This document shows positions 2,521-56,840 of a stretch of DNA of 64,000 nt, one piece after another. Within the stretch, counting starts at the first letter, position 1. Every line of letters begins with the position of its first letter. The stretch spans positions 1 through 64,000 of the forward strand of contig JAFSFY010000008.1 in NCBI GenBank assembly GCA_017434985.1. The letters are read 5' to 3'. The translations under genes and the position numbers were made by a program. Source of the stretch: Clostridia bacterium (GTDB lineage Bacteria; Bacillota; Clostridia; Oscillospirales; Acutalibacteraceae). The notes under the pieces are model-generated. The model saw only the letters and a list, made by a program, of their open reading frames with translations. It made no database searches and had not been told where the DNA came from.

Positions 2521-3876
2521 TTAAATGTCGTTTTGTTCTAATACAAGTTTGATCGCCCAGGGGGGAACGTCAGGAATTTCGTAGTCGTCTTTCACGAACA
2601 CAAAGGCTGTATCGTAATCGGGCTTGCGTTCAGGGAAGACGCCATAACCGTCAGTAAAGTAGATAAGCCCTTTTAGGTTTCGAAACTCTTTATTTTTAAT
2701 AAGCTCATCTACTTTTTCAAAAACGGGACGAAAATCGGTGCCACCGAGACCTTTGATTTGCATTGTTTTCAGATATTCATCAAATTCATCTTGATTAGTG
2801 ATTTTGATATGCTCTTGAATATCCGCATCACACTGAATGATATGAAGATTGATTTTGCTGAAAAAGCTTTCGGTGCTTTTAAGTATGTTGTAGGTTTTCC
2901 GAACAAATGCTTGTACTTGCTCGCCCACAACCGAACCGGACGTATCAATGGCGATAACAAACTCTTTTATCCGTTTAACTTCTTTGTATTCAAGCGGCTC
3001 AATAAGCGGCATTTTGTCATAGAGCTTCAGCCCATAGGTGTAGAAGATATAATCAAACTCATCATCGTTTATCTTCATTGCTTCACCCATAACGGCGAAC
3101 TTTTTGAGGAAGGAGGTATAATCATATTTTTCGCGGTTAACTTCTTTTAAATTTTGAATAAGTCCGCCCGCTATATCGCCGCGCTGTTTACCAAAGGTTT
3201 CGATATCCACCTGCATTCGCTCGGCAATTTTCTGCCAAGTAGCGTTCAATTCTACAGCCGACAGCGTCAAGTCGTTCACGCCGTCACCTTGTTCGTCAAA
3301 TGATTGCCCGATACCGTACGCTGCCGCCTTTTCCTCATCGGTCATATACCATATTTCGTGATTATCGGCATAAAAGCGGGAGCGGATGTCGGTAGCGGTC
3401 ATTGGGTCAACGTTATTTGATTTTAAGTAGGCGTAAATCTTTTCTGCGGTAAGCATTTTACACTCTTTTTTGAATTTAGCGCTATCTTTCGCTTGCAATC
3501 CTTCGCGGAAAGATGTCGCCGCTTTTAATCCCAAATCGGTTATTACGTTTTCTACCGCAATATCCGTTGCCAAATCCCAAAGCGGACGGTCAAGAGTTGG
3601 GTCCATAAACATATGCCGATACACGCAGTGCATCACGATATGTAAATAGTCACGTACGACCGTTTCTTTTTGGTGTTTGAAATTCGATAGCACGCGCTTG
3701 GGGTTATACATCAGGAAATGCCCGTCGGTGAGCATAGAGGATTCACCGACAGGTTTCATTTCAAATTGGCTAAGTGCTGCATCTAAAAACCGCAAATTCA
3801 CGAGCAAGGTGTTGCGTGAAAGAATCAGCACTTCTTCCGCTAGCTTTTCAGCTTTATTTAGTTGTTTTTCTTCCAT
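2521..3876 (-). CDS. DUF2201-type protein: metallopeptidase-like domain plus VWA-like domain
   Basis: The 451-aa product matches the layout of the DUF2201 family, an N-terminal putative zinc metallopeptidase-like domain followed by a von Willebrand A-like domain. At about residues 78-87 the sequence YLHIVMHCVYRH has the spaced histidines, but the usual catalytic Glu of HExxH is replaced, so peptidase activity is doubtful. The C-terminal half has a MIDAS-like set: IDTSGSV near residue 315, GGTDFRP near 375 and FTDGYG near 408. In many genomes this family sits beside a MoxR-type AAA ATPase; none is visible here, although it could lie beyond the left edge. It is embedded between LRR genes on the same strand. 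A truncated near-copy lies at 5382-5624. Role inferred only: chaperone-like or conflict-related VWA protein. Confidence 0.82.
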   Translation of the reverse strand: MEEKQLNKAEKLAEEVLILSRNTLLVNLRFLDAALSQFEMKPVGESSMLTDGHFLMYNPKRVLSNFKHQKETVVRDYLHIVMHCVYRHMFMDPTLDRPLWDLATDIAVENVITDLGLKAATSFREGLQAKDSAKFKKECKMLTAEKIYAYLKSNNVDPMTATDIRSRFYADNHEIWYMTDEEKAAAYGIGQSFDEQGDGVNDLTLSAVELNATWQKIAERMQVDIETFGKQRGDIAGGLIQNLKEVNREKYDYTSFLKKFAVMGEAMKINDDEFDYIFYTYGLKLYDKMPLIEPLEYKEVKRIKEFVIAIDTSGSVVGEQVQAFVRKTYNILKSTESFFSKINLHIIQCDADIQEHIKITNQDEFDEYLKTMQIKGLGGTDFRPVFEKVDELIKNKEFRNLKGLIYFTDGYGVFPERKPDYDTAFVFVKDDYEIPDVPPWAIKLVLEQNDI

Positions 3877-5381: not shown

Positions 5382-5624
5382 TTAATAAATAAAACTTATA
5401 GACAATAATTCCGCTTGGTGGTTGAAATTCGATAGCACGTGCTTGGCGTTATAAAGCAGGAAATGCCCGTCGGTGAGCATAGAGGATTCACCGACAGGTT
5501 TCATTTCAAATTGGCTAAGTGCTGCATCTAAAAACCGCAAATTCACGAGCAAGGTGTTGCGTGAAAGAATAAGCACCTCTTCAGCCAGTTTTTCGGCTTG
5601 GGTTAGTTTCTTTTCTTTCATCAT
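5382..5624 (-). pseudogene. Truncated duplicate of the DUF2201 VWA/metallopeptidase gene
   Basis: The first about 68 residues match the N-terminus of the intact gene at 2521-3876 (shared core EKLAEEVLILSRNTLLVNLR). The DNA is identical over roughly 110 bp, 3713-3826 against the equivalent part of this copy. The frame then leaves the homology after NFNHQ and stops within 10 codons, so both functional domains are missing. It keeps a start (ATG ATG after GAAGGTG) and could still be translated into an 80-aa peptide. It sits 12 bp after the LRR-DUF4132 gene, the same kind of position as the intact gene behind the 455-aa LRR gene, which points to duplication of a whole cassette. Confidence 0.8.
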
Positions 5625-15626: not shown

Positions 15627-17753
15627 TTATTTCTCGTAGTAGGAGGGCAGTTCGGTATCAATGACCTTGTGCAAACGCTCGAGTTTCCATTCGATGTGGG
15701 CGCGGTCGCACATATATTCCATACTCGGCTCAAACCCGAGACGGGAATCGAACTCCACGATCGGGATGGTATCCTCAGCGTTTTTGACCTCGCCGCGGCA
15801 GAGTTCCAGCATACGGTCGACCAAACGATTGCGTTCCTCGCCGTGGGCTTTAAGCAATTTGCATTTGCATTTGTAGAACTCTTTGTACGCGACCGACGTG
15901 CGCACCGTGTTGCGAATGAACATACCGAGTGCCAAAATGCGTTCGGCGTTATCGCGCTTACGGGCGGGCACTTTGTCCATAATCGACACGAGCAACTCAC
16001 AACCACGCGTATACAGATCGCGGGATTTGGTGAAACTTTCGATCTCGTAATCGAACTTGCGCACGTCCTTTTCGGTGGGGTTCTCCACGTTGAGGCCGAC
16101 ACCGATGTCGTTGCCCCACATATCGGCACCGTAGTTGGTGTAGCAATAGCGGCTGCCGAAGTGCGAATAGGGTTCTTCCGGCAACGCTTCGCCCAAGTTC
16201 TCAAACAGTTGGAACGGATAGGCGGGACCCACACGGTGGGGGCCGTATTGGTCGGGGTCGGTGGAGATGAGGTAATGGATACCGTCACTGAAACAGCGGT
16301 AAGCTTCGCACACGGTGTCCGCCACTTCGGGCGCGAAATCGCGCGCCGCCATTTGATGCAAAATACCGTCGAGATCGGGCATCGGCGAATAGAACGCCCA
16401 TTTGGCCAGTTCCGAAATAAACGACGGCGAACAACCGTAATGGTGGCTTTCCATTGCGCCGACCAACCCGTACTCGTCGTGCGCTTTGCGCATACCCTCA
16501 TACCGCTTGATCCATTGATACGGCGCGGGAATGTACGGTACCACACCGATATCCCACGTGAGGCCGCCCGTGTTGGTCATCGAATAAAAACGCAAGCCGT
16601 TTTCCTTGGCATATTCGCCCTCGGTGGTGAAATATTTGCCGGGGCCGGGGCTGAACAAGGTGTAGTCGGTGGTGCGGTTTTCCACCCCGTCACGCGGGAC
16701 GGTATCCCACATCTCGTAGGTGGCTTGAATCGCCACGTCTTTGGGCAACACATCCAAGAGCGCCTTGCGGTGTTTGCCTTCCACAAACCCCCAGTTGTAG
16801 GACCACAGCACGATGTCCGCGTCGGGACGGCGTTTGTACACGATCTTTTTGATGAGATTCATCAGATCGGCATAGTCCACACACGGAAACCAGCCGGGAT
16901 ATTCCGCTTGTTTGTGACGGGGATTGCCGTTTTCGTCTTTGTCGGCAAAACGCGGAATACCGCAGGTATGCGGGTCTTTGCTGGGGAACTCGCAAGACTC
17001 GCCCACGAACACCAGACCTTTGAAGTAGGGACAACGGTCGAACAGTTTGCCGTAGATATTCTCGTAATATTCCTCGGCATCCGCATCATCGGGGTGGCGC
17101 AAATGTTCAAAGTAACTGTAGGCATACACGTCCACACCATATTGGGCGGCGCGGTAGCACAGGTCGTTAAAATCTTGATAACCGTGTGCCGTTTGGTCGA
17201 TCTTTTCCACAAACAAGAGGATCGCCGTCATACCCACGTGCGCCAAGTTGATAATGTGCTCGTTGGGATACATATCAATGCCGTAGCCCGAGTGCACCAT
17301 ACGGGTGTGGAGCAACGACTCACGCACTTCGTCCACAGGATCGACAAAAGGAGCTTCGCACAGGTTCATCAAGTCTTCCAGATGATAGCCTGCTTGCGCC
17401 GCCATACGGGGGCTGCCGCCGATGAGGAGGATCTCGGCGTCACGCACCACAAAGCGATAAGAATTTTCATCCAATTCGTCCGACACGCCGTACACAATGC
17501 GTTTGCCAACGTTTTCGGCACCGTCACGCACCACGCGCACCGACACGTTCATCGAGGTGAAGAGATAATCTTCCAGGTCACGGGCGGCGTTTTTGACCAC
17601 CACGTGCGCATCCGACGGCATCACAATCGTCCACGTATGATCCACTTCCACCTGACCGACACCGCAAACCTTATTCACGTCCCGACGGTCGGGGCGGTGG
17701 ATCACGCTGAAACGCTGCCGAAATTGATAACTCACTTCTTTGGTGTTCATCAT
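15627..17753 (-). CDS. Glycosidase-like protein (alpha-glucuronidase/GH20-type fold), paralogue A
   Basis: About 708 aa, starting MMNTKEVSYQF at 17753 (AAGGAGG upstream; an ATG at 17762 touches the binding site). Residues about 30-130 resemble the small N-terminal domain of GH67/GH20 enzymes (NAARDLEDYLFTSMNVSVRV, then LIGGSPRMAAQAGYHLEDLM). The centre looks like a TIM barrel: GMTAILLFV, YGVDVYAYSYFEHL, FKGLVFVGESCEFPSKDP and DADIVLWSYNWGF. The Glu in FVGES and nearby acidic residues are candidate catalytic groups. The C-terminus is helical. No signal peptide, so it would act on an imported sugar derivative. It is a tandem paralogue of the gene at 17877-20027. The exact CAZy family is not assigned here. 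Confidence 0.7.
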   Translation of the reverse strand: MMNTKEVSYQFRQRFSVIHRPDRRDVNKVCGVGQVEVDHTWTIVMPSDAHVVVKNAARDLEDYLFTSMNVSVRVVRDGAENVGKRIVYGVSDELDENSYRFVVRDAEILLIGGSPRMAAQAGYHLEDLMNLCEAPFVDPVDEVRESLLHTRMVHSGYGIDMYPNEHIINLAHVGMTAILLFVEKIDQTAHGYQDFNDLCYRAAQYGVDVYAYSYFEHLRHPDDADAEEYYENIYGKLFDRCPYFKGLVFVGESCEFPSKDPHTCGIPRFADKDENGNPRHKQAEYPGWFPCVDYADLMNLIKKIVYKRRPDADIVLWSYNWGFVEGKHRKALLDVLPKDVAIQATYEMWDTVPRDGVENRTTDYTLFSPGPGKYFTTEGEYAKENGLRFYSMTNTGGLTWDIGVVPYIPAPYQWIKRYEGMRKAHDEYGLVGAMESHHYGCSPSFISELAKWAFYSPMPDLDGILHQMAARDFAPEVADTVCEAYRCFSDGIHYLISTDPDQYGPHRVGPAYPFQLFENLGEALPEEPYSHFGSRYCYTNYGADMWGNDIGVGLNVENPTEKDVRKFDYEIESFTKSRDLYTRGCELLVSIMDKVPARKRDNAERILALGMFIRNTVRTSVAYKEFYKCKCKLLKAHGEERNRLVDRMLELCRGEVKNAEDTIPIVEFDSRLGFEPSMEYMCDRAHIEWKLERLHKVIDTELPSYYEK

Positions 17754-17897: not shown

Positions 17898-20027
17898 CAC
17901 GTATTCGTAATAGGACGGCAATTCCTCGTCGATCACGCGATAGAGCCGTTCCAACTTCCACTCGATGTGAGCGCGGTCACACATATATTCCATACTCGGC
18001 TCAAACCCGAGGCGGGAATCAAATTCCACGAGCGGAATGGTATCCTCGGCATTGCTCACTTCGCCGCGACACAGTTGCAGCATCTCGTCCACCAGACGGT
18101 TGCGTTCTTCGCCGTGAGATTTCAGCAACCGACATTTGCGTTTGTAAAATTCCTTAACCGCCACCGAGGTACGCATGGTGTTGCGAATGAACATCGCGAG
18201 CGCCAAAATGCGTTCGGCGTTGTCGCGCTTGCGTTCGGGAAGCGTTTTGATCACCGATGCAAGAAGTTCGCAACCGCGCGCGTAATGCGCTTCTGCTTGG
18301 GTAAAACTTTCAATCTCGAAATCGAATTTGCGCACGTCTTTTTCGGACGGCTCGTCCACGTTCAACCCGATGCCGAGATCGTTACCCCACATACCCATCC
18401 CGTAATGCGTAAAACAAATACGGCTACCGAAGTGCGCATACGGTTCTTGCGGCATCCGCTCACCCGCGTTCTCAAACAATTGGAACGGATAAGCAGGGCC
18501 TACGCGGTGGGGACCGTATTGATCGGGGTCGGTGGAGACAAGGTGATGGATACCTTCGCTGAAGTGCCGATAGGCTTTACACACGGTATCGGCATTATCC
18601 GCACCGAAATCACGCACCACCAAACGGCGTAACGTGTCTTCCAGATCCACGGCGGGCGAATAAAATGCCCATTTGGCCAGTTCGGTGATAAACGACGGGG
18701 TACATCCGTAATGGTGGCTTTCCATCAAGCCGACCAGTCCATACTCGTCGTGTGCTTTACGCATCCCTTCGTACCGTTTCATCCACTGATACGGCGCGGG
18801 CAGGTAGGGCACCACACCGATATCCCACGTCAGGCCGCCCGTGTTGGTCATCGAATAAAACCGCAGACCGTTTTGCTTAGCAAACTCACCTTCGGTGGTA
18901 AAATACTTACCGGGGCCGGGGATAAACAACGTATAGTCGACGGTACGATTGTCCACCCCGTCGCGAGTGACCGTTTCGAACATTTCGTAGGTCGCTTGGA
19001 TCGCCACATCTTTGGGGAGTACGTCGAGCAGTGCTTTGCGATGTTCGGGCGCCGCATGCCCCCAGTTGTACGACCACAGCACAATGTCCGCATCGGGACG
19101 GCGTTTGTACACAATCTTTTTGATCAGATTCATCAAGTCGGCATAGTCCACGCACGGGAAATAGCCGGGATATTCATACAAGTTATGGCGCGGATTGCCG
19201 TTTTCGTCCAAATCGTCGAAATAGGTCACACCGCAGGTGTGGGGGTCTTTGCTGGGGAAATCGGCATCTTCACCCACGAAAATGAGACCCTTGAAATAGG
19301 GGCAACGGTCAAACAAATGACCGTACACGCTTTCGTAATATTCCTCGGCCCCCTCGTCATCGGGGTGGAATTTGTTGCGGAAATAACTGTAGGCGTACAC
19401 ATCGATGCCGTATTGCGCGGCACGATAACACAGGTCGTTGAAATCTTGGTAGCCGTGTGCGGTTTGGTCGATCGCCTTGACGAACAACAGCACCGCGGTA
19501 ATGCCCACGTGCGCCAGATTAACAAGATGCTCGTTCGGATACATATCGATACCAAAGCCCGAATGCACCATACGGGTACCGAACAGTGATCGACGCACTT
19601 CGTCCGTTTGGTCGAGAAAAGGAGCCTCGCACAGATTCATCAAATCTTCAAGATAATAACTTGCCTGCGCGGCCATACGGGGGCTGCCGCCGACCAGCAA
19701 AATTTCGGTTTCGCTCACCGCAAAACGGTAGGAATTTTCGTCCAATTCCGCCGAAACACCATACACGATGCGCTTATCACCAACGGCGTTTGACCCTTCG
19801 CGCGCCACCCGCACCGACACGTTCATCGAGGTAAACAGATAATCCTCCAAATCGCGCGCGGCATTTTTTACCACCGCATCGGCATCAGCGGGAATTACAA
19901 TCGTCCACGTGTTGTCCACTTCCACCTGACCGACACCGCAAACCTTATCCGCGTCCCGACGGTCGGAACAGTGAATGACGCTGTAGCGTTGGCGGAATTG
20001 ATAATTCACTTCTTTGGTATTCATCAC
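17877..20027 (-). CDS. Glycosidase-like protein (alpha-glucuronidase/GH20-type fold), paralogue B
   Basis: 716 aa, starting MMNTKEVNYQF (GTG 20027, or ATG 20024), after AAAAGGGGG. It aligns with paralogue A over its whole length and shares almost all long motifs (GQVEVD, LFTSMNVSVRV, GGSPRMAAQA, FKGLIFVGEDADFPSKDP, DADIVLWSYNWGH, YSMTNTGGLTWDIGVVPY). A difference at the candidate active site is FVGED in place of FVGES-C, and in B the partner gene C-terminus is longer. The two could have split substrate range. Cytosolic by lack of a signal peptide. It is downstream of the 455-aa glycosidase-like gene on the same strand, separated by a terminator, so it may have its own promoter around 20030-20130. 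Confidence 0.7.
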   Translation of the reverse strand: MMNTKEVNYQFRQRYSVIHCSDRRDADKVCGVGQVEVDNTWTIVIPADADAVVKNAARDLEDYLFTSMNVSVRVAREGSNAVGDKRIVYGVSAELDENSYRFAVSETEILLVGGSPRMAAQASYYLEDLMNLCEAPFLDQTDEVRRSLFGTRMVHSGFGIDMYPNEHLVNLAHVGITAVLLFVKAIDQTAHGYQDFNDLCYRAAQYGIDVYAYSYFRNKFHPDDEGAEEYYESVYGHLFDRCPYFKGLIFVGEDADFPSKDPHTCGVTYFDDLDENGNPRHNLYEYPGYFPCVDYADLMNLIKKIVYKRRPDADIVLWSYNWGHAAPEHRKALLDVLPKDVAIQATYEMFETVTRDGVDNRTVDYTLFIPGPGKYFTTEGEFAKQNGLRFYSMTNTGGLTWDIGVVPYLPAPYQWMKRYEGMRKAHDEYGLVGLMESHHYGCTPSFITELAKWAFYSPAVDLEDTLRRLVVRDFGADNADTVCKAYRHFSEGIHHLVSTDPDQYGPHRVGPAYPFQLFENAGERMPQEPYAHFGSRICFTHYGMGMWGNDLGIGLNVDEPSEKDVRKFDFEIESFTQAEAHYARGCELLASVIKTLPERKRDNAERILALAMFIRNTMRTSVAVKEFYKRKCRLLKSHGEERNRLVDEMLQLCRGEVSNAEDTIPLVEFDSRLGFEPSMEYMCDRAHIEWKLERLYRVIDEELPSYYEYVQKDNSL

Positions 20028-20178: not shown

Positions 20179-21546
20179 TTACACGCGGCGCAAGAACAAG
20201 ATTTTGTTTGGCTCAATCGTCCACGTGGCGGAAATCTCGCCCGTTTCGCGATTTTCCCACGGGGCATCCAACGTCAGTTCATAGGGTTTGCCCTCTTGCA
20301 GGTTGGACACCGTTATATAGGTCTCCTCGTTGACGAACATCGAGGCATATACATCCTCGGGAAGCGGCGACAGAATGTCGGCACAATCGTTCAGTTCCAC
20401 GTAGACGACCGAATTTTCCGCCACCATCGGCTTGTACAGCGACATATAGTGGCTCCAACGACCGAACTCGGTCGGGTCGTCGGGAATGGAGGACCACAAG
20501 CTGTGTACGAACGGGCCGTCGGGATGCGCTTTGGTCCAATCGCCGACCGCTTTGTTGAACAACCATTCGTGACCGTATTTGCCGTTTTCGTTGCCGTAGT
20601 ACGGCACGTCCGCCTCGATGCGTTTGCCCATCAGCGGGCGACCCATCGTGGTGAGGAACGGGAACTGCATAAACGGAATGACCGCGGCAAAATAGTAGTC
20701 GGGGTCGTCGGTTTTGAGTTGTGTTTTGTCTTGGCAGGGCACCACGTAGTCGGGGAAATCTTTACCCGCACCCGCGGTTTTGCCGCCTACCAACTCACCG
20801 ATCCACAAATAGTCGTACACCTTATCCATACACGGCGCGGGCGCGTTGCCGTCGCAATGCAGTTTGTACACGCCGCCACGGCGTTTCACTTCGGCATAGA
20901 TGGTACCGAGCAGGTCTTCCACTTCGGGGTCATACCCGTCGGGACAACCCGCGCGCTGCAGACGACCGTTGGCGAAATATTGACTGTCGGCACCCCAATC
21001 GTTGTACAGACCGTCAAAATTATAATCGTCCAAAATCTTGAGCGTGCGCGGAATGAGATATTCGCGCCATTCGGCACTGCCCGCCGAGCACATACGATAT
21101 TTGAAGTGCGAACCGATGCAGCAATAGCGGTGTCCGTGCGGCGCAAATTCCTCGCGGAAATCGCGGTCGTACTCGTGGAAATAACCCGTCGAGGTATAGG
21201 GAATCACCTTGATGCCGAAGCTGTGGCACAGATCAATAAAGCGTTGCAACCCTTTGGGATCGTGGCTGGTGTATTTATCCGCACCGAAAATGCGAATGGA
21301 GTCGTTCCATTCTTCGTGGATCTGAATGAGGTCCACGCCGCCTTCCGCCATCGCTTTCAGCGTGGTGAAATCGTATTCCGTCGGTTCAATGGAAAACGGA
21401 TACGGATAGTCACCCAGCGTATACACGGCTTGTCCGCACAGATAGTCGCGCACACGGTGACGGCGGAAATAGGTGCGGTTGCGCACCTCCGCGCGGTTGA
21501 TGTTGTCAATGCGAGCGCGATGTTGTTCCAGAGTCAACGTTTTCAT
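20179..21546 (-). CDS. TIM-barrel glycosidase-like protein, 455 aa
   Basis: Start MKTLTLEQHRARIDNINRAE at 21546 after AAAAAGGAG. The sequence reads like a (beta/alpha)8 hydrolase: TLKAMAEGGVDLIQIHEEWN near residue 90, FIDLCHSFGIKVIPYTSTGYF near 140, LDDYNFDGLYNDWGAD near 190 (acidic pair typical of catalytic strands) and KLHCDGNAP near 245. The C-terminal about 90 residues look like a beta-sandwich domain (VYVELNDCADILSPLP, then TWTIEPNKILFLRRV). No signal peptide. It is 14 bp from the transketolase subunit gene upstream and so belongs to the transketolase/SDR operon. The precise family and substrate are unknown. Confidence 0.65.
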   Translation of the reverse strand: MKTLTLEQHRARIDNINRAEVRNRTYFRRHRVRDYLCGQAVYTLGDYPYPFSIEPTEYDFTTLKAMAEGGVDLIQIHEEWNDSIRIFGADKYTSHDPKGLQRFIDLCHSFGIKVIPYTSTGYFHEYDRDFREEFAPHGHRYCCIGSHFKYRMCSAGSAEWREYLIPRTLKILDDYNFDGLYNDWGADSQYFANGRLQRAGCPDGYDPEVEDLLGTIYAEVKRRGGVYKLHCDGNAPAPCMDKVYDYLWIGELVGGKTAGAGKDFPDYVVPCQDKTQLKTDDPDYYFAAVIPFMQFPFLTTMGRPLMGKRIEADVPYYGNENGKYGHEWLFNKAVGDWTKAHPDGPFVHSLWSSIPDDPTEFGRWSHYMSLYKPMVAENSVVYVELNDCADILSPLPEDVYASMFVNEETYITVSNLQEGKPYELTLDAPWENRETGEISATWTIEPNKILFLRRV

Positions 21547-21560
21547 ACGTAAGCTCCTTT

Positions 21561-22481
21561 TTATTTGTTCAGCATTTCCTTTACGGCGTTGTAAATATCG
21601 TCTTGACCAAGGCCGTATTGCTCACGCAACCATTCTTGCGAGCCGACTTTGGACACGTACACGTCGGGGAGTGCCAAGCGTTTGAGTTCGCAAGGGCAAC
21701 CCGCTTCCGCCAACACTTCCGCCACGGCACTGCCGAAACCGCCGCTCAGGTTGTGCTCTTCCACCGTTAAAATCTTACCAAAACGTTTCGCGCTCGTCAA
21801 GATCTCTTCTTTGTCGATGGGTTTGATGCTGTGCATACTCACGAGACGCACGCTGATGCCTTCTTCCGCCAAGCGTTTGACGGCTTTCTTCGCATCGTAG
21901 CCGATGGGGCCGGTGAAGAACAGGGCAATGTCGTCACCGTCACACACGGGAATGGATTTGCCGATTTGGAAGTTGATGGGACCTTCGTGGATGTCGCTCT
22001 CGTTTTTGTAACCGCAGCGATAGTACACGGGGCCGTCGTGCTCGATCATCGCGTGCACCGCGGCTTCCGCTTCGATGCAGTCGCAGGGCACCATCACCAC
22101 GATGTTGGGGAGGGCGCGCATAATGGCGATGTCTTCGGTGGAGTGGTGCGAAATGCCGAGCGGGCCGTAGGACACACCGCCGCCGATGATGACGATCTTC
22201 ACGTTTTGGTTGTGATAGCACACGTCGTTACGAATCTGCTCGAGGCAACGAAGGGTCGGGAAGTTCGCGATGGAGTAGGTGATGCACACGTTGCCTTCCA
22301 TCGCCATACCGCAGGCCACACCCGTCATATTTTGTTCCGCCACGCCAACGTTGTACAAACGGCCGGGGAACGCTTCGTCAAACGGTTCGATCTCGCCGTA
22401 ACCGATGTCGGCCAGGATCATATGAATACGCGGATCATCTTTCGCAATATCAATGAGCGTTTTGTTGAATATCGTTCTCAT
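21561..22481 (-). CDS. Transketolase, C-terminal subunit
   Basis: 306 aa, beginning MRTIFNKTLIDIAKDDPRI. It carries the pyrimidine-binding and C-terminal transketolase domains: GEIEPFDEAFPGRLYNVGVAEQNM with the conserved Glu, GVSYGPLGISHHSTEDIAIM, and TVEEHNLSGGFGSAVAEVLAE. Together with the gene 3 bp upstream it makes a split transketolase, as in many archaea and Clostridia. It would transfer two-carbon units in a pentose-type route. The company of SDR and oxidoreductase genes suggests a dedicated sugar-derivative pathway and not the housekeeping pentose phosphate enzyme, but this is inference. Confidence 0.9.
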   Translation of the reverse strand: MRTIFNKTLIDIAKDDPRIHMILADIGYGEIEPFDEAFPGRLYNVGVAEQNMTGVACGMAMEGNVCITYSIANFPTLRCLEQIRNDVCYHNQNVKIVIIGGGVSYGPLGISHHSTEDIAIMRALPNIVVMVPCDCIEAEAAVHAMIEHDGPVYYRCGYKNESDIHEGPINFQIGKSIPVCDGDDIALFFTGPIGYDAKKAVKRLAEEGISVRLVSMHSIKPIDKEEILTSAKRFGKILTVEEHNLSGGFGSAVAEVLAEAGCPCELKRLALPDVYVSKVGSQEWLREQYGLGQDDIYNAVKEMLNK

Positions 22482-54194: not shown

Positions 54195-54734
54195 ATGAAT
54201 CTGACCGAAAAAACCTTAACCGAATCCTATCCGTTTCGCGGCCGCATCATCAATTTGCGGGTGGACGAAATTGAACTGCCCAACGGTCACCGTTCCGACC
54301 GCGAGGTGGTGGAACATCCCGGCGGTGTATGCGTGGCACCGCTGACCGACGAGGGAGAACTCATTTTCGTGCGGCAATTCCGTTATCCGTACAAGGAAGT
54401 GGTGCTCGAACTGCCCGCGGGCAAACGCGACAGAAACGGCGAGGACCCGCTCACCTGCGGCAAACGCGAACTGCTGGAAGAAACGGGCGCCACCGCCGCG
54501 GAGTATCGGTATTTGGGTCCTCTCTACCCCACGCCGGGCTATTGTGACGAGGTCATTCATCTGTATTTGGCAAAAGGGCTCACGTTCGGCGACGCGTGTC
54601 CCGACGAAGACGAGTTTGTGGAAGTGGAACGCATCCCATTAGAAGAAGCCGTGCAGATGGTGTTGCGCAATGAGATCCCCGATGCCAAAACCCAAGTGGC
54701 GATCATGAAAACGTATTTGTTGTTGCAAAAATAA
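54195..54734 (+). CDS. NUDIX hydrolase (ADP-ribose pyrophosphatase type)
   Basis: 179 aa from ATG 54195 (MNLTEKTLTESYPFRGRIIN), AAAGGAG upstream; the longer frame from 54147 overlaps the divergent gene. Family features are VVEHPGGVCVAPL, VRQFRYPYKEVVLELPAGK and the NUDIX box (GEDPLTCGKRELLEETGA), with one residue more between the Gly and first Glu than the consensus. It splits ADP-ribose to AMP and ribose 5-phosphate. Monocistronic, with a terminator 3 bp behind the stop. Confidence 0.92.
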   Translation: MNLTEKTLTESYPFRGRIINLRVDEIELPNGHRSDREVVEHPGGVCVAPLTDEGELIFVRQFRYPYKEVVLELPAGKRDRNGEDPLTCGKRELLEETGATAAEYRYLGPLYPTPGYCDEVIHLYLAKGLTFGDACPDEDEFVEVERIPLEEAVQMVLRNEIPDAKTQVAIMKTYLLLQK

Positions 54735-54736
54735 GC

Positions 54737-54770
54737 AAAACAGCCGATGACACAAAGTCATCGGCTGTTT
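54737..54770 (+). terminator. Terminator of the NUDIX gene, identical to 55304-55337
   Basis: Stem AAACAGCCGATGAC / complement with a 5-nt loop. The 34-bp sequence occurs again unchanged at 55304-55337 in the same orientation, so the XRE and 67-aa genes lie between direct repeats. Confidence 0.8.
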
Positions 54771-54771
54771 G

Positions 54772-54990
54772 TTATTTTGTAGGATAGGGCGTTTTAACAG
54801 TGGTTCTTCCTATCAAGTAATCCACGCTGACCTGATAATAATCCGCCAATTTGTCAGCATACTCAAGAGGCAACGGCCGTTCTTCACGCTCGTATTTCGA
54901 ATACAGCGACTGATCGCACAACAAATAATCGGCCACCTGTTTTTGCGTTAAATCCAAATCTTCTCGCAAATCGCGAATGCGCAATTTCAT
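54772..54990 (-). CDS. XRE-family transcriptional regulator, 72 aa
   Basis: Start MKLRIRDLREDLDLTQKQ at 54990, with AGGGTGATA upstream. Single Cro/C1-type HTH: LTQKQVADYLLCDQSLYSKYERE, then PLPLEYADKLADYYQVSVDYLIGRT, a common class in Firmicutes. Divergent from the 67-aa gene; two palindromes between the two starts are its probable operators (55014-55034, 55043-55055). The C-terminus is next to the shared terminator. Confidence 0.92.
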   Translation of the reverse strand: MKLRIRDLREDLDLTQKQVADYLLCDQSLYSKYEREERPLPLEYADKLADYYQVSVDYLIGRTTVKTPYPTK

Positions 54991-55013
54991 AATTATCACC
55001 CTGCCAAGCATAC

Positions 55014-55061
55014 AATAGGACGATACGTCCTATTGACTTTTTGGACTATATGTCCTAAAAT
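55014..55061 (+). promoter_or_regulatory. Promoter and operators of the 67-aa gene
   Basis: Perfect inverted repeat AATAGGACG-ATA-CGTCCTATT (55014-55034) and a second GGAC-TATAT-GTCC (55043-55055). The promoter TTGACT (55033-55038), 17 bp, TAAAAT (55056-55061) overlaps both. Binding of the divergent XRE protein would block it. Confidence 0.7.
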
Positions 55062-55113
55062 ATGCTTGCTACAGTGCCTTTTTTTACGATAAGGGGTTAA
55101 GGGGTGCATTGAC

Positions 55114-55317
55114 ATGGACCATAGTTTGGAAAAATACTTAGAAAAATTATCTCCTGCGGAACTAAAAAATGCTTGGTGCTATTACTTGGAGAAAAACAAA
55201 GCGGGAGATTACGAATACGAATTGAGTGAAATCTTTCGAATTCTGCAATCACGCGGAAATACCACCTCTGCTTATGAAGAACGTCCGTTTTGGTTGTATA
55301 ACGAAAACAGCCGATGA
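55114..55317 (+). CDS. Small hypothetical protein, 67 aa
   Basis: MDHSLEKYLEKLSPAELKNAW at 55114, AAGGGGTG upstream. Predicted helical and acidic, with aromatic residues (CYYLEKNKAGDYEYELSEIF). No family recognised. It has an operator-controlled promoter and stops inside the 34-bp direct repeat (ENSR, stop). With the XRE gene it could be a two-gene regulatory or toxin/antitoxin-like module, but no toxin signature is seen. Confidence 0.65.
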   Translation: MDHSLEKYLEKLSPAELKNAWCYYLEKNKAGDYEYELSEIFRILQSRGNTTSAYEERPFWLYNENSR

Positions 55318-55337
55318 CACAAAGTCATCGGCTGTTT
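55304..55337 (+). terminator. Second copy of the 34-bp terminator
   Basis: Same 34-bp sequence as 54737-54770, followed here by TTT. It terminates the 67-aa gene and contributes its last codons. Confidence 0.75.
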
Positions 55338-55338
55338 T

Positions 55339-55500
55339 TTGCGCTTTTGTTGTAACAGCATAGGCTCCCTCCGGGAGGGAGCTCCCGCGATAGCGGGTGA
55401 GGGAGAATGCGTAACAACCGTACTGTACAACCGTGAAATTGCGCAGGCTCCTTCCACCAACGCTCCGCGTCGGTCCCCCTTCCTCCCGGAGGAAGGCTTT
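55339..55500. repeat. Intergenic palindromic repeat element
   Basis: About 160 bp without a gene, with two palindromes (CTCCCTCCGGGAGGGAG near 55365 and CTTCCTCCCGGAGGAAG near 55482) and GCGATAGCGGGTGAGGGAGA between them. It has the look of dispersed, REP-like elements of Clostridia. One copy only in this window. Confidence 0.45.
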
Positions 55501-55866
55501 TTACCTCTGCTCAAGAGAATCTTTAACAATTTCATCAATGTATTCGCACACACCGCGGAAATTTGTGTTGATTTGTCGGTTGGTGAATCGTATCACCTTC
55601 AAATCGTAACCCTCCAACCGTTCCGTTCGAAACTCGTCCTTGCGCTGTCCCTCGTCACTATAATGTTGGGAACCGTCAATTTCGATCACCAATTTTGCCC
55701 TGTGGCAATAAAAATCGGCTATAAAATTGTCGATTGCCTTTTGTCGCTGGAATCGAATTTCGTATTTCGACAAAAAATCATACCACAAGTGATTCTCTTG
55801 CGGCGTTGCGTTTTTTCGCAATCGTTTTGCAAGGGGAATGTTTTTTCCGTTATAATCCAGCGACAT
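55501..55866 (-). CDS. DUF559-domain protein (Vsr/endonuclease-like)
   Basis: 121 aa, MSLDYNGKNIPLAKRLRKNATPQE. The fold is the very-short-patch-repair endonuclease-like DUF559: NHLWYDFLSKYEIRFQRQKAID, FYCHRAKLVIEIDGSQHYSDEG (catalytic-type Asp, Glu) and YDLKVIRFTNRQI. It starts 2 bp after the dusB stop, so both come from one transcript. The activity of the family is unproven; nuclease is inferred from the fold. Confidence 0.88.
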   Translation of the reverse strand: MSLDYNGKNIPLAKRLRKNATPQENHLWYDFLSKYEIRFQRQKAIDNFIADFYCHRAKLVIEIDGSQHYSDEGQRKDEFRTERLEGYDLKVIRFTNRQINTNFRGVCEYIDEIVKDSLEQR

Positions 55867-55868
55867 CG

Positions 55869-56840
55869 TTACAGTTCCTCATTCTCTTTGAGTGCGTGGT
55901 AGCACAGGCGGCGCAGGTCGTCCATCGTGCTGATGGAACCCGCTTCGCCGCGCAGGATGGCGGCGCCGCGAAATCCCCGCAGATACCACGACGCGTGCTT
56001 GCGCGCTTCCAGCAGGGCACTGCGTTCGCCTTTGAGTTCGACAGCGAGTGCCACCTGACGGCACAACACTTCCAAACGGTGGGCAAGCGGCGGTTCGGGA
56101 AGTAACGTCCCCTCGTTCAAATAGGCTTCGATTTGGGAAAACAACCACGGTGCGCCCAGCGCGCCGCGCCCCACCATCACGAGGTCACACCCCGTGTGTT
56201 CGTACAGACGGGCGGCATCCTCGGCAGTCGTCACGTCGCCGTTGCCGATGACCGGCACCGACACCGCGCGTTTGACCTCACGGATGATGTCCCAATCGAC
56301 GGGCGGGGCATACATTTGGTCGCGGGTACGACCGTGCACCGTGATGGCGGCGGCACCGCCGCTTTCGCACGCGAGCGCCACTTCCACCGCGTTCACTTCG
56401 TCTTTCGCGTACCCTTTGCGGATCTTCACCGTCACGGGCACGTCCACCGCGCCGCACACCGCCTTGACGATACGGTGGCACAGTTCGGGTTCGCGCATCA
56501 GCGAACTGCCGCAGTGGTTGCCCGCAATTTTGGGGGCGGGACACCCCATGTTGATGTCCAACCAATCGGGTTGTTGCTTCATCGCAAGCAGGGCGGCGTT
56601 GGCCATGGTATCAGGGTCGTCTCCAAACAGTTGAATGGCGGTGGGACGGGCGCGATCGTCGAGTTCCATCAGTTCGCCGCTTTTGCGGTCACCCATCGAC
56701 AAGGCTTTGGCACTCACCATTTCCGACACCGTAAACGCCGCGCCGTGGTCGGCGCAGATACGACGAAAAGCGCGGTCTGCCACACCGGCCATCGGTGCCA
56801 ACGCCGCGCGTTTCGTTATGTCGATCGAACCGAGTTTCAT
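55869..56840 (-). CDS. dusB: tRNA-dihydrouridine synthase
   Basis: 323 aa, MKLGSIDITKRAALAPMAGVADRAFR at 56840, GAGGTGGG upstream. FMN barrel with APMAGVADRAFRR near residue 15, the catalytic Cys in INMGCPAPKIAGNHCG near 98, VTVHGRTRDQMY near 165, VPVIGNGDVTTAEDAARL near 195 and GRGALGAPWLF near 220. DusB type (reduces U17 and others). Operon with the DUF559 gene. Confidence 0.95.
   Translation of the reverse strand: MKLGSIDITKRAALAPMAGVADRAFRRICADHGAAFTVSEMVSAKALSMGDRKSGELMELDDRARPTAIQLFGDDPDTMANAALLAMKQQPDWLDINMGCPAPKIAGNHCGSSLMREPELCHRIVKAVCGAVDVPVTVKIRKGYAKDEVNAVEVALACESGGAAAITVHGRTRDQMYAPPVDWDIIREVKRAVSVPVIGNGDVTTAEDAARLYEHTGCDLVMVGRGALGAPWLFSQIEAYLNEGTLLPEPPLAHRLEVLCRQVALAVELKGERSALLEARKHASWYLRGFRGAAILRGEAGSISTMDDLRRLCYHALKENEEL

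Follow-up and report, generated by a model that had tools for sequence, protein, structure and literature searches.

Small cassettes bounded by palindromic repeats are known from integrons and dif modules, and small XRE repressors that face a divergent promoter with repeated operators are typical of RstR/ImmR-type systems, such as those of the CTX phage and ICEBs1. A further route, insertion with long target duplication, was reportedly described by Nobusato et al. in 2000 for restriction-modification units of H. pylori. In the parts of two papers that concern it (PMC1643837, PMC3031569), this process is characterised by transposase-free cargo, by long direct repeats of variable length, and by a single copy of the repeated sequence in the related genome. 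For the T6SS immunity arrays of V. cholerae, a portion of another paper (PMC5361080) carries the proposal of homology-facilitated illegitimate recombination, in which one homologous anchor serves to import genes, whilst the displaced resident gene stays downstream. Our literature search returned nothing on point for duplicated terminators or for insertion at terminators, which does not imply absence from print.

The locus described here lies in a window of 64,000 nucleotides (the whole stretch of DNA analysed; Table 1). Two exact copies of a 34-bp terminator, AAAACAGCCGATGACACAAAGTCATCGGCTGTTT, enclose 533 bp holding a divergent gene pair, an XRE family regulator and an orphan 67-aa open reading frame, as the original prediction had stated. 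The likeness to integron cassettes and dif modules, i.e. a small cassette between palindromic repeats, does not extend to the nature of the repeats, which here are terminators and vary between sites; an integron cassette was rejected, as the terminator ends misfit the attC core GTTRRRY.

Table 1. Positions of the features at the module locus (window numbering) and at the compared loci (numbering of the respective locus or contig).
Feature	Position	Strand	Remarks
Nudix hydrolase gene (ADP-sugar pyrophosphatase type)	54195..54734	+	Pfam NUDIX 7.9e-15; host gene upstream of T1
Terminator T1	54737..54770		bidirectional hairpin separating nudix (+) and XRE (-)
XRE family regulator, 72 aa	54772..54990	-	Pfam HTH_3 1.3e-13; RstR/ICEBs1-repressor-like
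Operator O1	55016..55032		TAGGACGATACGTCCTA; perfect palindrome, 0 mismatches, ends at the -35 element
Promoter of 67-aa gene	55033..55061	+	sigma-70-type TTGACT-17-TAAAAT, 10/12 consensus
Operator O2	55041..55057		TTGGACTATATGTCCTA; in promoter spacer, 1 mismatch to O1 half-site pattern
Orphan 67-aa ORF	55114..55317	+	last residues and stop codon encoded by T2
Terminator T2	55304..55337		identical to T1
DUF559 gene	55501..55866	-	Pfam DUF559 5.6e-27; right-hand neighbour
dusB	55869..56840	-	NCBIfam DusB 3.4e-108; right-hand host gene
ribF-udg junction, occupied	L056:6495-7188; L071:6506-7201
ribF-udg junction, empty	L059:2000-2038; L067:6505-6546
rplQ case	L175:16866-16954 / 18636-18724 (G000:C35)		insert: 430-aa gene after rplQ
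Mn-catalase case	L172:16142-16268 / 17461-17595 (G000:C31)		insert: BspA-type LRR gene
157-aa gene case	G000:C2 18858-18981 / 21532-21655		insert: 659-aa gene; 124 bp, 95%

T1 and T2 are palindromes, each with 14-bp arms around a short spacer, and fold into near-perfect hairpins on either strand (14-16 bp, -23.9 to -26.8 kcal/mol), an energy matched by none of 200 shuffles; beyond the exact match, the similarity of the two copies covers 43 nt at 93% identity (54731-54773 / 55298-55340). Allowing up to three mismatches, the terminator was found at two places only in the 1.62 Mb of the window's own genome, and was absent from eight congeners; the exact pattern had no match in IMG/VR, and a search of Rfam gave no result. 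In the sampled part of the own genome, 197 hairpin pairs are separated by 300-3000 bp, and 2 of them have at least 13 arm bases in common, T1/T2 being one of these. None of 11,909 distant pairs in the same genome reaches this level, and none of 155,870 between-genome pairs has at least 12 arm bases in common; since these control pairs give zero, the T1/T2 match exceeds chance. (In another genome, G005, 1 of 27,139 distant pairs reaches at least 13.) The twin is a real, non-random feature.

The XRE stop codon (54772) lies 2 bp from T1, with the nudix stop at 54734 on the other side. The protein scores 47.2 bits against the NCBIfam RstR model, under the family cut-off of 80, and matches the ICEBs1 Xre regulator in the PDB (7t8i, 9.4e-06); judged by its sequence, its closest kin are small repressors of mobile elements. 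Approximately 120 bp separate it from the divergent 67-aa frame. The original prediction had claimed a clear operator in this pair; there are in fact two, O1 and O2, each of 17 bp and 25 bp apart, which cover the -35 element and the spacer of the 67-aa promoter. Allowing up to two mismatches, their pattern has five matches in the 64-kb window against 0.68 expected, O1 and O2 being the best two. The most likely role of the XRE protein is repression of the 67-aa gene through these sites, and it probably tunes its own expression in the same way. The small XRE repressor, the divergent promoter and the repeated operators resemble the RstR/ImmR-type arrangement, but the RstR score falls under the cut-off, the module contains no phage or ICE genes, and the partner is an orphan.

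The 67-aa frame reads unbroken into T2, its stop codon (55315-55317) sitting within the stem. Searches of Pfam, PHROGs, NCBIfam and PADLOC assign its product to no family, and they therefore give no match to a known toxin or defence family such as the partner in a toxin-antitoxin module might show. It has no phage or plasmid match, and relatives were sought without result in 98 related genomes, in IMG/VR (including by exact pattern) and, by sequence, in the PDB. Within 398 genomes of the family it is convincing in one, the window's own; the 17 other matches (E up to 0.1) lie mostly within long unrelated frames, the best (6e-4) inside a frame of 1184 residues. A single-sequence AF2 model is helical (mean pLDDT 75, low at the C-terminus), and a fold search with this model found nothing at E 0.001. 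The G+C content of the insert is 40.5%, compared with 51.8% for the window, a weak signal given that 141 of 1270 windows are equally low.

The same site was compared in congeners, with one genome per species. The nudix gene is present in eight of nine genus genomes (seven of eight congeners), adjoining an M14 peptidase gene in six of the seven congener loci. In all seven, XRE, the 67-aa frame, DUF559 and dusB are absent within 1.5 kb downstream of nudix; four (G002, G003, G004, G008) have an unrelated terminator of their own after nudix, followed by a common gene which we read as transporter-like. Congener dusB lies in other neighbourhoods (five loci), and nudix stands beside dusB or DUF559 in no congener examined. 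The XRE/67-aa module is therefore new to the lineage at the nudix site, and because the right flank of the congeners differs too, they do not provide a strict empty site. Neither excision nor a one-terminator allele was seen at the nudix locus in this comparison. Beside the DUF559 gene, at 55362-55498, are G+C-rich inverted repeats (AGGCTCCCTCCGGGAGGGAG ... CTTCCTCCCGGAGGAAGGCT), possibly a repeat element associated with DUF559.

A scan of 80 loci retrieved by a search with the nudix protein revealed a parallel locus, L056. Its plan, ribF->T<-SLOG / 62-aa protein->T<-uracil glycosylase (udg), is like that of the window, with a different, exact 38-bp terminator present in two copies in that genome. 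In another Ruminococcus-like species (L071) the same module is flanked by near-identical terminator copies, whilst two further loci (L059, L067) run ribF-T-udg with one terminator, no module and approximately 30 bp between matched coding ends. The state with one terminator and no module, for which the original prediction had proposed to look amongst strains, is therefore present at this parallel site, with occupied and empty forms side by side. Other genes occupy the junction in L062, where the terminator is kept on the udg side only, and there are other inserts in L081, L112 and L113. The L056 and L071 modules (618 and 621 bp) have 575 identical alignment columns, and their flanks are 86.7% identical. 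The flanking-gene tree places L056 at the base and L071 in a nested position, and the occupied state with its twin terminators therefore requires two changes. A pair of insertions at the same site would explain the pattern, as would a later exchange. The two terminators of L056 have a common loop, unlike the loops of its relatives. The 62-aa protein has no Pfam match; the label ribbon-helix-helix is our own reading. SLOG genes occur in 59 of 200 genomes, and terminator twins at 2 of 30 SLOG loci, L056 itself and L246 (T<-SLOG / XRE->T<-dusB; same stems, different loops). At udg loci a twin was seen in 1 of 30, again L056 itself (55 genomes with matches out of 100 searched).

Scanning of the own genome (G000; 737,635 bases, window included) revealed three more inserts bracketed by duplicated gene ends with their terminators, at the rplQ, Mn-catalase and 157-aa loci; in each the far copy retains only a truncated end of the gene, and the origin of the repeat from the resident gene end is clear. 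At rplQ the 3′ end and terminator are doubled around the inserted gene (90 columns, approximately 97%). The 157-aa case was counted with its two hairpins as part of the repeated gene end, the near copy having no T run. Over the 30 codons of the Mn-catalase end copies there are nine synonymous and two nonsynonymous codon differences; the differences being mainly synonymous, the copies look like two functional alleles. A drifting pseudogene is not expected to give such a pattern, and both copies look as if they were once functional, although comparison with congeners does not distinguish which copy is foreign. In the window itself the match is confined to the terminator plus a few bases at the nudix stop, and because the repeat barely exceeds the terminator, derivation from the nudix end is a weak point. 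Repeat lengths across the loci range from 34 to about 135 bp.

The congener G002 has a pair of XRE and 59-aa frames bracketed by two copies of another terminator, which align over 36 columns with one mismatch and one gap. Terminators therefore seem to belong to sites and not to modules, and on the strength of this other terminator with another XRE we rejected the idea that the terminator is carried by the XRE family. Small XRE genes of the genus stand just behind terminator hairpins at six loci, L013-L018, and at L021, L023, L024 and L028; the cargo diverging from them is very varied (lipoprotein-like, SLOG-like, small Cys-rich proteins), and several of these loci have palindromic operator-like sites of their own. 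Two repeats of other kinds were also recorded: a multicopy palindromic element around 270-aa and 439-aa frames (G000:C40 28025-28194 and 30580-30747), with matches on C10, C15 and C57, and an exact 114-bp direct repeat in the window (3712-3825 / 5457-5570; 1631 bp between the copies).

No terminator twin was found in the scanned parts of G004 (230 kb), G005 (485 kb) and G007 (82 kb), together 797 kb, three scan matches in G005 being a local repeat array, nor in the single-contig genomes G217 and G015 (400 kb each). Left out of the count were long tandem or multicopy repeats (G005 C48, C38 and C59; L107; G000 C57, C52, C23 and C20, and the palindromic element of C40) and chance-level pairs with short arms (G000 C66, G004 C19, G005 C53 and C43). 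As the genome scans and the udg loci mostly lack them, twins are uncommon and unevenly spread.

Our preferred explanation, to which we assign a probability of roughly 0.6, is that the XRE/67-aa pair is a horizontally gained cassette that entered exactly behind nudix, leaving a gene end and terminator on each side. The process would begin either with incoming DNA whose cargo is attached to a related terminator or gene end, or with a break at the gene end. In the former case the incoming end might pair with the resident end and terminator, the other end being joined illegitimately; alternatively, a staggered break might be filled in. Either way, to judge from the cases in the own genome, the resident end and terminator would be kept on the far side. 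The product would be A->T<-C D->T<-B, with a bidirectional terminator at every convergent junction, an arrangement seen in the sequence. In favour of gain are the exact twin, with two genomic copies, the absence of the module behind nudix in seven of seven congener loci, the near-confinement of the 67-aa frame to the own genome, the similar footprints at other loci, and the parallel ribF-udg site in its two states; against it stand the lack of twins in G004, G005, G007, G217 and G015 and the 28 of 30 SLOG modules without one. The anatomy thus fits the part of the original prediction that had a module gained and the neighbouring terminator doubled, whereas nothing at the nudix locus shows the excision that it also envisaged. 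Because other inserts in the own genome show the same pattern, the evidence suggests that the repeat is more likely the footprint of an insertion at a gene end than an evolved excision device. Loss through the 34-bp copies, by recombination or slippage, is possible and probably rare; 34 bp is short for homologous recombination.

Like long target duplication, these cases have cargo that brings no transposase of its own, and a direct repeat far longer than the target duplications of transposons (34 bp exact here, 90 to 135 columns elsewhere). They differ in the nature of the repeat, which is either a bare terminator or the 3′ end of a gene with its terminator, in that one case has allele-like differences between the copies, and in that the cargo is a regulator pair or other accessory gene and not a restriction system as in the H. 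pylori units. Compared with the T6SS arrays, the anchor would be as short as a terminator and a few codons, and the cargo is unrelated to T6SS. The Mn-catalase copies, by their pattern of codon differences, would favour homology-facilitated illegitimate recombination over long target duplication; the identical copies of the window, which carry no allele signal, fit either route. The twin is best read as an instance of a recurrent insertion footprint, a variant of long target duplication or of insertion with one-sided homology.

Several other explanations deserve consideration. The modules might be mini-elements moved in trans by a recombinase for which the hairpin or the gene 3′ end is the attachment site, much as dif and integrase sites are. 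The 34-bp palindrome with its 14-bp arms, the insertion at a gene end with repeats on both sides, and a regulator like the repressors of mobile elements are all consistent with such site-specific integration, but the repeats differ at every locus and vary in length, unlike the site of one recombinase, and the 533-bp module contains no recombinase; we consider it unlikely. We are similarly doubtful of an internal event, in which a resident XRE/67-aa pair gained its second terminator through gene conversion or a template switch, without DNA from outside. The common loop of the L056 terminators is what homogenisation would give, and in the window the terminator alone is clearly repeated; such an event nonetheless leaves unexplained the gene-end fragments and allele-like divergence at the other loci of the own genome, and the absence of the module from congeners.

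The own genome is a draft in fragments and probably represents a metagenome bin, in which mixed-strain haplotypes joined in tandem could yield false twins. The four cases in 738 kb of this genome, against none in 800 kb of the two single-contig genomes, keep misassembly in play as a minor rival, as does the resemblance of the Mn-catalase copies to two strain alleles. It is improbable in view of L056 and L071, separate assemblies of different species with the same module and twin terminators, and of the continuity of the 67-aa frame into T2; moreover, a false join could arise only where identical terminators already stood at two sites. As terminators are short palindromes subject to shared constraints, a match might come about by coincidence or because selection favoured one and the same sequence, yet the zero counts amongst distant and between-genome control pairs, together with loops that match too, make this extremely improbable.

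More tentatively, terminators at gene ends may be docking points where small cargo modules enter and leave genomes, by way of short homology that the terminator provides, sometimes with the last codons of the resident gene; we hold this wider proposal to be possible and rather less than probable. Because each convergent junction keeps a two-way terminator, insertion need disturb neither neighbour, and the twin design would explain how a cassette enters between two genes with no upset to the transcription of either. Many small accessory genes of gut Clostridia have no visible mobile element alongside. If docking is true, twin terminators would be a readable footprint of gains in these bacteria; if entry is marked by such twins or by duplicated gene ends, it would become possible to date gains, to trace donors through allele-like copies, and to test whether the cargo arrived by transformation, conjugation or phage.
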